Below, piece after piece: positions 59,050 to 63,137 of a stretch of 64,000 nucleotides of DNA (position 1 is the first letter of the stretch; the number at the start of each line of letters is the position of its first letter). The stretch is from positions 1 to 64,000 of the forward strand of contig NZ_JAKUCN010000010.1 of NCBI RefSeq assembly GCF_022808595.1, in the 5' to 3' direction. The stretch is from Microvirga solisilvae. GTDB lineage: Bacteria > Pseudomonadota > Alphaproteobacteria > Rhizobiales > Beijerinckiaceae. The position numbers and the translations under genes are program-made. The notes beneath the pieces are model-generated. The model was not told the DNA's origin. It searched no databases and saw only the letters and a program-made list of their open reading frames with translations.

Positions 59050-59286
59050 TTACAGATTCCGTTGAACGGGAGCGCTGACGCCACGCGACCAAGCCTGCAC
59101 TACCAGATGCCGCCGCAGCATCAGAGGGCATGTCACCTCGTCCTGCTGGCAGGTCGAGACGATCCCACTCAGCATCCAAGCCATATTCTGCTTCTCATGC
59201 GGCGAAGAACTCGAAGCGAGCCGCGAAAACTCGTCCGGCAACTCCTCCTGGCACAGGGCCGCATCCAATTCGTTCGTGGCAGTCAT
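59050..59286 (-). CDS. small EcfG-controlled protein, uncharacterised
   Basis: The 78-residue protein (MTATNELDAALCQEELPDEF...) is soluble and mostly helical. It has a central SPHEKQNMAWMLSGIVSTCQQ segment and three cysteines. I recognise no family. It is judged real because the ATG at 59286 has an excellent GCGGAGGCGA site and a perfect EcfG promoter ends 30 bases upstream. It leads into the uncharacterised 182-residue gene. Confidence 0.6.
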   Translation of the reverse strand: MTATNELDAALCQEELPDEFSRLASSSSPHEKQNMAWMLSGIVSTCQQDEVTCPLMLRRHLVVQAWSRGVSAPVQRNL

Positions 59287-59315
59287 CGTCGCCTCCGCAT
59301 CATTCTTGGCTTGGC

Positions 59316-59340
59316 AACGTGCCCAGAACGGCCCGGTTCC
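59316..59340 (-). promoter_or_regulatory. EcfG-type stress promoter of the 78-residue gene
   Basis: On the minus strand GGAAC (complement of 59336-59340), 16 bases, then CGTT (complement of 59316-59319). It exactly fits the consensus. Confidence 0.72.
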
Positions 59341-59406
59341 TCCACTTGGGGAAACTTCGTCCACATCTACCCAGGAAACGCTTTCGAATTTCGATGAAAA
59401 TATTTT

Positions 59407-59431
59407 GGAACCCCCTCCTGCGCTGGGCGTT
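59407..59431 (+). promoter_or_regulatory. EcfG-type stress promoter of small RNA B
   Basis: GGAAC (59407-59411), 16 bases, then CGTT (59428-59431). No open reading frame follows; a hairpin terminator ends the stretch about 80 bases later. Confidence 0.68.
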
Positions 59432-59437
59432 ATGTCA

Positions 59438-59510
59438 GCAACCGGTTCGAATGCCCCCTTGAGCCGGCACCTTACAGGGCGCAGTCATTCGTGGCTGCGC
59501 CTTTTGTTTT
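59438..59510 (+). ncRNA. candidate stress-induced small RNA B (GsrN-like)
   Basis: The predicted transcript is about 73 nt and runs from an EcfG promoter to an intrinsic terminator. The 5' hairpin pairs CCGGTTC (59442-59448) with GAGCCGG (59461-59467) and exposes a C-rich loop holding GCCCCC. The terminator stem is GGCGCAG/CTGCGCC (59478-59484 and 59495-59501), followed by TTTTGTTTT. It shares CCCCTTG and GCCGGCACCTT with small RNA A, 1.8 kb away. The role is inferred: base pairing of the C-rich loop with G-rich mRNA leaders, as known for sigma-T-dependent GsrN in Caulobacter. The exact 5' end is estimated. Confidence 0.6.
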
Positions 59511-59588
59511 GGCTATCCCCTCTTGCCCATGAAAAACGGCGCCCCGGCAGAACCGGGACGCCGCAGATCGGCAGATAAAGTGTGCCTC

Positions 59589-60372: not shown

Positions 60373-60397
60373 AACGCGCCAAACAATTGGACGTTCC
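60373..60397 (-). promoter_or_regulatory. EcfG-type stress promoter of the PRC-barrel gene
   Basis: On the minus strand GGAAC (complement of 60393-60397), 16 bases, then CGTT (complement of 60373-60376). The start codon lies 58 bases downstream. Confidence 0.75.
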
Positions 60398-60564: not shown

Positions 60565-61086
60565 CTACGAAACAGAATGCCCTAAAGAAGCAAGACACAT
60601 GCTCGGCATCCTGCCTTTGGCGGCACTTGCCAAGGGGCTGACGTCGTCAAGACAACCTACCGGGGGCTGGCGCTTGATCTTCCGCGGCTCCTCACTGCCT
60701 TCGCGCGTAATCACGGGAGGATGCTGAACGGCAGGGCTGTAGGCATCTTCCTTCACCGTCAGGACAGGAAGCTCCGTATTCTTGGAGATCGTCGTCACGC
60801 CAGAGCCCGGATCAGCCCGGTAGAGGACCTCGCCATTGCTGTCCCGAAGGATGACTGTGGCGCGGGAAAGACCGACGATCTCGACGATGGAAATGCTGGC
60901 CGGATGCTCGGCCGGCTTCGAAACTGCCAGACGGTCCCCTTTGGATGCGATACGATCCTGCAGCAAAGCATTCTTGAAGGCCTGGGAAAGCTGCGAAGCA
61001 TCAATCCCCGAATCCGCGAAAGCGATGCCCCCGGCAAGCAGGGCGGCCCCGGTCAAAACACACAATCTGGTGGCACTGAGGAGCAT
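60565..61086 (-). CDS. secreted stress-regulated protein, uncharacterised
   Basis: The 173-residue product has a signal peptide (about 1-24, ending GIAFA). A small beta-rich region (SISIVEIVGLSRATVILRDSNGEVLYRADP, then NTELPVLTV) and a Pro/Lys/Arg-rich tail with two cysteines follow. Similar proteins occur in Methylobacteriaceae-like genomes as hypothetical proteins. AGGAGG lies 7 bases before the ATG, and a perfect EcfG promoter ends 40 bases upstream. The function is unknown; a periplasmic stress role is inferred from the promoter only. Confidence 0.75.
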   Translation of the reverse strand: MLLSATRLCVLTGAALLAGGIAFADSGIDASQLSQAFKNALLQDRIASKGDRLAVSKPAEHPASISIVEIVGLSRATVILRDSNGEVLYRADPGSGVTTISKNTELPVLTVKEDAYSPAVQHPPVITREGSEEPRKIKRQPPVGCLDDVSPLASAAKGRMPSMCLASLGHSVS

Positions 61087-61125: not shown

Positions 61126-61150
61126 AACGCGACCCTATCTGTGAGGTTCC
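61126..61150 (-). promoter_or_regulatory. EcfG-type stress promoter of the 173-residue secreted-protein gene
   Basis: On the minus strand GGAAC (complement of 61146-61150), 16 bases, then CGTT (complement of 61126-61129). Confidence 0.75.
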
Positions 61151-61187: not shown

Positions 61188-61213
61188 GGAACCTTTATTT
61201 TCCAAGCGGCGTT
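61188..61213 (+). promoter_or_regulatory. EcfG-type stress promoter of small RNA A
   Basis: GGAAC (61188-61192), 17 bases, then CGTT (61210-61213). It points into a gene-free stretch that ends in a strong terminator. Confidence 0.7.
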
Positions 61214-61219
61214 CTAAAA

Positions 61220-61302
61220 GCACCGGCCTCCTGGTCCTCCCCGCATTCCCCTTGTGCATTGGCCGGCACCTTTAGACGGGCTTCGAGAGCCCGTCTTTTT
61301 TT
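61220..61302 (+). ncRNA. candidate stress-induced small RNA A (GsrN-like)
   Basis: The predicted transcript is about 83 nt and lies between an EcfG promoter and an intrinsic terminator. CCGGCC (61223-61228) pairs with GGCCGG (61261-61266) around a 32-base loop. The loop is rich in C and contains CCTCCCC and TTCCCC, which could bind Shine-Dalgarno-like GGGG/GGAG sites. The terminator is an 8-bp stem GACGGGCT/AGCCCGTC (61275-61282 and 61288-61295) with seven Ts. CCCCTTG and GCCGGCACCTT recur in small RNA B. Promoter class, C-rich loop and nearness to phyR-nepR-ecfG recall Caulobacter GsrN; homology is not proven. The exact ends are estimated. Confidence 0.65.
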
Positions 61303-61396: not shown

Positions 61397-62203
61397 TCAC
61401 GCCGTGGCAGCGCGTGCCTCGCGGCGCTTGGCGCTCTGTTGGAAGAACAGGGCTTGGCTGATCACGGCCGAGACGTTGGCCGGCTGGAACGGCTTGGCGA
61501 TGAGGAAGGCCGGCTCGGGCCGCTCACCGGTGAGGAAGCGCTCCGGATAGGCGGTGATGAAGATCACCGGTACCTCGAAAGACTTCAGCAGGTCATTGAC
61601 CGCGTCGAGACCCGAGCTGCCGTCGGCAAGCTGGATGTCGGCCAGGATCAGGCCGGGCTGCTTCGTGGTAGCGAGCTTCACGGCCTCGGTGCGCGTACGG
61701 GCGACACCCGTCACGTTGTGGCCGAGACCTTCAACAAGCGCCTCGAGATCCATGGCGATGAGCGGCTCGTCCTCAATGATGAGGATGTCGGTGGCCATGT
61801 CAGCCGCCAACTCACGGCCAGCTTCGTCCACGAGCTCGCGCACCGTCTTGGCGTCGACGTCGAGAATCTGGCCGACCTCCTCCTCCCCGAAGCCTTCAAG
61901 GCAGGAGAGCAGGAATGCTTGGCGCGGCAGCGGAGTGATCTGCCCGAGGCGAACTTCCGCCGGCAGATCGCGCTGGATCTGCTCGCTGCGTCCGTTGACG
62001 GAAAGCGAATTCCAAATGCGCGTGAAAACCTGGAAAAGCTCGACCTTGACGTTGCCGGAGGGCCCAATGGTCTCGGGCTCGCTCACGAGCGTCTCAAGGG
62101 TTGCAGCCACATAGGCGTCGCCAGCCATCTGGCTGCCTGTAAGTGCGCGTGCGTAGCGGCGAAGATACGGTAAGTGCTGGACGACAAGCTGAGCTGTCGA
62201 CAT
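61397..62203 (-). CDS. phyR: general stress response regulator PhyR
   Basis: The 268-residue anti-anti-sigma factor has an N-terminal sigma-like domain (about 1-135: QHLPYLRRYARALTGSQMAGDAYV, LPRQAFLLSCLEGFGEEEVGQIL). A C-terminal receiver domain follows (about 138-262) with the acidic pair in IIEDEP, the phospho-acceptor D189 in LILADIQL and a Lys in FLIAKPFQP. On phosphorylation the sigma-like part binds NepR and frees EcfG. The ATG at 62203 follows GGGGAAG. An EcfG promoter stands upstream, so PhyR is under feedback control. It is divergent from nepR-ecfG. Confidence 0.97.
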   Translation of the reverse strand: MSTAQLVVQHLPYLRRYARALTGSQMAGDAYVAATLETLVSEPETIGPSGNVKVELFQVFTRIWNSLSVNGRSEQIQRDLPAEVRLGQITPLPRQAFLLSCLEGFGEEEVGQILDVDAKTVRELVDEAGRELAADMATDILIIEDEPLIAMDLEALVEGLGHNVTGVARTRTEAVKLATTKQPGLILADIQLADGSSGLDAVNDLLKSFEVPVIFITAYPERFLTGERPEPAFLIAKPFQPANVSAVISQALFFQQSAKRREARAATA

Positions 62204-62385: not shown

Positions 62386-62601
62386 ATGACAGGTGATAAG
62401 GGGAACAAGCTGCCTCGGGCGCTCCCGAGAACGTCTCTCGACGGCACGCTTGGAACCAGGGCCAAACTCGACGATGGCAGTCAGAAGCGAATCGGCGATC
62501 AATTGCGCGCCATGTACGATGAATTGATGCAGCAGCCGGTCCCGGACCGTTTCAAGGATCTGCTGGATCAGCTCGACAAGAAGAAGGCAGGGTCGCAATG
62601 A
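62386..62601 (+). CDS. nepR: anti-sigma factor NepR
   Basis: This 71-residue protein is the anti-sigma factor that holds EcfG inactive until phosphorylated PhyR binds it. The conserved core runs KRIGDQLRAMYDELMQQPVP plus DRFKDLLDQLD, the two helices that contact sigma or PhyR. The N-terminal third is disordered. AAGGGGA precedes the ATG. Its stop overlaps the ecfG start by four bases (ATGA), ensuring balanced synthesis. Confidence 0.95.
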   Translation: MTGDKGNKLPRALPRTSLDGTLGTRAKLDDGSQKRIGDQLRAMYDELMQQPVPDRFKDLLDQLDKKKAGSQ

Positions 62602-63137
62602 CCCAGGAGCCTGACCTGAGAGAGGCCTTGCTTGCCGCAGTCCCAGGCCTTCGCGCCTTCGCCATCTCTCTCGCGGGTCAGGTCGACAGGGCAGATGACC
62701 TTGTCCAAGATACTCTCCTCCGGGCTCTATCAAATCTCCATCGCTTCGAGAGAGGCACGAACCTGAACGCCTGGCTCTTTACGATCCTGCGCAATCTCTT
62801 TCATTCCGAGTATCGCAAGCGCCGCCGCGAGGTCGAGGACCCGGATGGCGTATTTGCTGGTCGCCTGAAGGTGCATCCCGAACAAGGCTCGCATTTGGAT
62901 TTCGAGGATTTCCGCTCTGCCCTCTTCGAGCTTCCCTCGGACCAGCGCGAGGCCCTGCTTCTGGTCGGTGCATCCGGCTTCTCCTACGAGGAAGCTGCCA
63001 GCATCTGTGGCTGCGCTGTCGGCACCATCAAAAGCCGGGTGAACCGTGCTCGGATCCGCCTTGCAGCCATGCTTAATGTGGAGGACGTGGACGATCTGGG
63101 CCCCGATACCATGACCCGCGCCGCCCTGCAGGGCTGA
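62598..63137 (+). CDS. ecfG: ECF sigma factor EcfG (ECF15 group)
   Basis: The 179-residue alternative sigma factor directs the general stress regulon. Region 2 includes LAGQVDRADDLVQDTLLRALSNLHRFERGTNLNAWLFTILRN, with the DDLVQDT and W-L-F-T-I-L-R-N hallmarks. Region 4 includes LPSDQREALLLVGASGFSYEEAASICGCAVGTIKSRVNRAR, with the -35-binding helix. It is translationally coupled to nepR and followed by a terminator. The cognate promoter pattern occurs ten times in the surrounding 5.4 kb. Confidence 0.96.
   Translation: MTQEPDLREALLAAVPGLRAFAISLAGQVDRADDLVQDTLLRALSNLHRFERGTNLNAWLFTILRNLFHSEYRKRRREVEDPDGVFAGRLKVHPEQGSHLDFEDFRSALFELPSDQREALLLVGASGFSYEEAASICGCAVGTIKSRVNRARIRLAAMLNVEDVDDLGPDTMTRAALQG

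Follow-up and report, generated by a model that had tools for sequence, protein, structure and literature searches.

Introduction

In alphaproteobacteria, few small RNAs (sRNAs) of the general stress response (GSR) have been characterised, and outside Caulobacter some predictions were made solely from position and promoter. Judged by plan and published description, the known systems that appear closest to the locus studied here are GsrN and ReC64. The sRNA GsrN of Caulobacter crescentus depends on SigT and uses its 5' C-loop to pair with katG (Tien et al. 2018; PMC5869019); nepR-sigT mRNA was co-purified with it (PMC5869019). Rhizobiales are predicted to have GsrN-related RNAs on the grounds of position and promoter, and in some cases also of expression; for Bradyrhizobium and Rhodopseudomonas, the prediction used an EcfG promoter and closeness to the GSR locus (PMC5869019). 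ReC64 of Rhizobium etli is an EcfG1-dependent noncoding RNA of 88 nt, located downstream of phyR-tcrY (Jans et al. 2013; PMC3892343). In Methylobacterium extorquens, post-transcriptional control of EcfG3 via an sRNA is suspected (PMC4814048). For the GSR of Microvirga, we found no published sRNA in the open-access literature.

In this study, we analysed a stretch of 64,000 nt from Microvirga solisilvae (hereafter the window; genome of 3.7 Mb), which represents the EcfG GSR locus of Microvirga, with the GSR genes at its right end (table 1). The candidate sRNA gene B spans 59407-59510 (+), from promoter through terminator. It displays three published hallmarks of GsrN-like GSR sRNAs: a near-consensus EcfG promoter, an exposed C-rich loop in the 5' part, and closeness to ecfG/nepR/phyR (approximately 2 kb from the 3' end of phyR, in a conserved order). 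The likeness is one of plan. GsrN and B both combine an EcfG/SigT-type promoter, a C-rich 5' loop and a 3' terminator, GsrN homologues usually lie near GSR genes, as B does, and the G-rich targets of GsrN, including a nepR site, resemble the G-rich pairing proposed below (PMC5869019). Unlike B, GsrN is about 100 nt long and processed (PMC5869019); further differences are that its target katG is absent here and that at least three siblings occur per genome. By BLASTn, GsrN homologues were limited to Caulobacteraceae (PMC5869019), our own covariance models having been searched within the order. ReC64, compared by description, is likewise an EcfG-dependent noncoding RNA of the phyR region, but it adjoins tcrY and a single copy is reported in the region (PMC3892343). 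AbcR1 and AbcR2 offer a parallel of another kind, as homologous sRNAs of one genome with possibly overlapping targets (PMC5461406, PMC8844928); they differ from the present pair in control, sequence and targets, and no family relation is claimed.

Table 1. Features of the GSR locus in the window
Feature	Coordinates	Strand	Basis and remarks
EcfG-type promoter of B, GGAAC-N16-CGTT	59407..59431	+	boxes kept in 35 copies, spacer drifts
Predicted sRNA B transcript	59438..59508	+	start and end predicted
5' hairpin of B, loop AUGCCCCC	59442..59467	+	fold, covariation, loop accessibility
Conserved unpaired CACCUU 3' of hairpin, common to A and B	59468..59473	+	alignments
Intrinsic terminator of B with U-run	59476..59510	+	fold; four pairs with double changes
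EcfG-type promoter of sibling sRNA A	61188..61213	+	
Predicted sibling sRNA A, loop CCCCGCAUUCCCCUUGUGC	61220..61302	+	47/48 genomes; matched by B-only model
phyR	61397..62203	-	convergent with A and B; leader UAAGGGGAAGCGA-AUG; named from sequence and order
nepR	62386..62601	+	leader GCAAGGGGAAUCAG-AUG; named from sequence and order
ecfG sigma factor	62598..63137	+	named from sequence, family and locus order

A Conserved Small RNA Gene in the GSR Locus

The original prediction described B as an EcfG promoter followed by a short hairpin with a C-rich loop and a terminator, and all three elements are present. The hairpin comprises 9 bp (CCGGUUCGA-AUGCCCCC-UUGAGCCGG) and is followed by CACCUU and then the terminator; the fold has a predicted energy of -33.4 kcal/mol (z -4.4), better than 200 of 200 shuffles. 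Its C-rich loop AUGCCCCC, in the 5' part of the RNA, is predicted to be unpaired and is invariant in 17 diverse copies, the invariant element being UGCCCCC. A search of Rfam 15 with B returned no family, the best match, suhB, reaching 15.3 bits against a gathering threshold of 41.

In a profile search of 46 Microvirga GSR loci, B was recovered from 35 and missing from 11; in all 35 it lies on the strand of A, 1.7-3.8 kb upstream of A. The -35 box reads GGAAC in 34 of the 35 copies and the -10 box CGTT in 28, at a spacing of 16-17 nt, whereas identity within the promoter spacer is only 32%. Over 38 nt centred on the hairpin, mean pairwise identity amounts to 76%, falling to 30-34% in the promoter spacer, in the first 7 bases after the -10 box and in the 40 nt on either side. 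Such islands of conservation point to a selected promoter and a selected RNA. EcfG-pattern sites number 10 in the window versus 1.6 expected, nine of them within 59.3-63.6 kb; genome-wide, the pattern is not enriched (128 matches vs. 197 for the reversed control), and thus it is conservation that provides real evidence for the B promoter. Further EcfG-type promoters, all on the minus strand, precede a small divergent ORF adjoining B (59316-59340), the PRC-barrel gene (60373-60397) and an ORF ending at 60565 (61126-61150), which makes the region an island of GSR genes.

The stems of B covary. Across 34 aligned copies, standard pairs make up 98.3% of the cells, and 8 of the 19 pairs, four in each stem (hairpin and terminator), have changed on both sides. 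Double-change cells total 36, compared with 12.9 in shuffles, and none of 500 shuffles was as good, in a control that ignores sequence kinship; sliding the pairing partners abolishes the signal, and the hairpin tested alone also passes. The occurrence in 35 of 46 loci together with this covariation confirms B as a real, evolutionarily conserved small-RNA gene, separate from A and with an EcfG-type promoter of its own.

Relationship with A and Other Siblings

Within the genus, 47 of 48 genomes contain A, and its exact 19-nt loop, CCCCGCATTCCCCTTGTGC, also occurs in Methylobacterium and Methylorubrum; A is convergent with phyR, usually at a distance of 120-580 nt, and its conservation across the three genera is striking. 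The two covariance models used for comparison exclude A: R1 contains B copies only, and R2 adds B-type copies from other genera. With R1, A is the second match in the window (27.9 bits, E 3.6e-6), the third scoring 16.5 bits; with R2, A scores 31.1 bits in the window (E 8e-8) and 19-34 bits across the loci tested. The proposed relationship between A and B is thus borne out at the profile level, beyond chance and independently of A itself, and the two indeed have different terminators, as had been noted. The short identities on which kinship was originally argued fared less well. The identical 11-mer GCCGGCACCTT is present (59463-59473), but occurs 13 times in the genome versus 3 in the reversed control, and the shared CCCCTTG becomes CCCCTCG in the closest relatives; of the AGCA-CCGG block, AGCA is not conserved, whereas ACCGG is kept in both RNAs, within the common arrangement ACCGG...CCGGCACCUU. 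The invariant loops differ, UGCCCCC in B and CCCCGCAUUCCCCUUGUGC in A. A direct alignment of A and B with MAFFT was poor, misaligned and uninformative.

R1 also revealed a third sibling in this genome, D (C1:420857-420930), which has the loop UUCUGCCCCCACG and, directly upstream, an EcfG-type promoter of its own, so the genome holds at least three sibling sRNAs: A, B and the distant D. D-like copies are seen in several Microvirga. B-type hairpins extend to further genera of the family, more genera than A. Genus g170 shows the gene order of the Microvirga window, B - PRC-barrel gene - A - phyR. In genus g175, A is absent and a B-type hairpin adjoins phyR convergently, in A's slot. In g43, a genus with large genomes from another family, R2 matches a conserved hairpin in eight genomes, preceded by a GGAAC box and an imperfect -10, and approximately 750 nt from phyR and convergent with it in the four loci with phyR within reach; it resembles, by description, the RNAs predicted in Bradyrhizobium and Rhodopseudomonas. 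An order-wide search for the pattern CGTT-ACCGG-TGCCCC returned exactly B and D in this genome, and control levels outside the family. Duplication followed by divergence, as first envisaged, is consequently upheld as kinship but not as a simple copying of A into B, given the B-type in A's slot, its presence in more genera, and D. A, B and D most likely belong together as siblings in one old family, of which the B-type is the more widespread.

Alternative Explanations

The likeness of A and B might instead reflect convergence, each having arisen independently beside the GSR locus under the same need for an EcfG promoter, a GC-rich stem and a C-rich loop. The poor pairwise alignment and the differing loops and terminators agree with such an origin; yet models built without A recover it (E 4e-6 and 8e-8), ACCGG...CCGGCACCUU is retained in both, and another genus carries a B-type where A would stand. 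On this evidence we hold that A and B are unlikely to be anything other than paralogues.

The nature and mode of action of B may also be questioned. Open frames overlap it (e.g. 59276-59578), and the locus could in principle encode a small protein or form the terminator or leader of a neighbour, the hairpin being incidental. Indels in the linker and in the terminator loop are, however, not divisible by three, the stem changes are compensatory, the terminator follows the promoter after some 70 nt, and the neighbouring genes lie on the other strand, oriented away from or towards B, all of which makes this explanation scarcely credible. Very unlikely, though less so, is that a genuine B RNA, instead of pairing with mRNAs, titrates A or some other sRNA as a sponge or decoy, or serves as a binding partner of a protein, CsrA-like or otherwise. 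A GC-rich, accessible 5' hairpin loop would suit such a role; against it, the loops of A and B are both C-rich and cannot pair with each other, and the invariant C-run suits G-rich leaders as partners, as for GsrN (PMC5869019).

Proposed Mechanism and Candidate Targets

We consider it likely that B is a trans-acting GSR sRNA of about 70 nt, transcribed by EcfG, pairing through its C-loop with G-rich leaders, and a sibling of A and D. In the known pathway, PhyR captures NepR under stress and EcfG is released. As judged from its promoter, B is probably switched on by this stress sigma factor, released EcfG being expected to transcribe it. The transcript would fold into a 5' hairpin displaying UGCCCCC in its loop, followed by the terminator, an architecture supported by covariation. 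B then probably acts through its C-rich loop on G-rich message starts, at GGGGGCA-like sites in mRNA leaders, and pairing could alter translation or stability of the mRNA, as the C-loop of GsrN does in Caulobacter. Since the siblings have the promoter class and the hairpin frame in common and only their loops vary, A, B and D probably have overlapping or distinct targets; for A and B, the two target ranges first suggested are plausible because their invariant loops differ.

For A, the best candidates are its neighbours, with CAAGGGGA spanning the start of nepR and UAAGGGGAA that of phyR, both near-invariant with drifting flanks; the A loop complements CAAGGGGA at the nepR start and AAGGGGAA at the phyR start. 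Sites related to these are also present in Methylobacterium, and g175, the genus without A, mostly lacks them. AAGGGG is rare, occurring in 2 of 149 ORF leaders of the window (a list that includes spurious ORFs), and CAAGGGGA stands before ATG 17 times in the genome. The nepR and phyR SDs are a plausible target of A, although the AAGGGG/CAAGGGGA site may simply be an SD.

For B, a scan for AGGGGGCA before ATG in four genomes gave 65 places, most of them translated, and csaA was the only gene with such a leader common to three of the four. Over 30 species the csaA leader site, mostly GGGGCA, is loosely but not strictly kept, and csaA is at best a weak candidate; neither the four-genome scan nor the csaA leaders of 30 species yielded a convincing conserved B target. 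katG was rejected as a B target, the gene being absent from this genome and present in one of five Microvirga; activation of katG by loop pairing, which has no counterpart here, concerns a species-specific target and does not define the family. Unrestricted duplex energies, which ignore target folding, were left out of the evidence.

A broader reading, tentative and on balance doubtful, is that the GSR of Microvirga and Methylobacterium relatives runs a duplicated sRNA family (A, B, D and the C-types described below) with diversified loops. A would then feed back on nepR-ecfG and on phyR, the targets of B and D would form a separate GGGGGCA set, and some of the C-type copies would accompany ecfG paralogues. 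A could also be the sRNA suggested for post-transcriptional control of EcfG3 in M. extorquens. The covariance models provide a definition in sequence and structure, recovering phyR-linked sRNAs across genera and several siblings in a single genome, and they make both sRNA feedback on phyR and nepR-ecfG and an sRNA behind EcfG3 control in M. extorquens testable.

Additional Copies

Several further copies were observed. The g170 genome (MAG C_No_T20_C_bin.82) carries a second B-type hairpin with an EcfG-type promoter, approximately 7.4 kb upstream of B. Extra C-type copies bear the loop CCCCGCATTCCCCTTGTGC unaltered, on a stem whose sequence is quite different yet still complementary; in most of them GGAAC is accompanied by a GRATTA-like -10 replacing CGTT. 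For at least two of these copies, an ecfG paralogue is situated 1.4-2 kb away. A MAG contig labelled 'Rhizobiaceae bacterium' contains Microvirga-type A, phyR, nepR and ecfG at 75-98% identity, and is probably misbinned or mislabelled.
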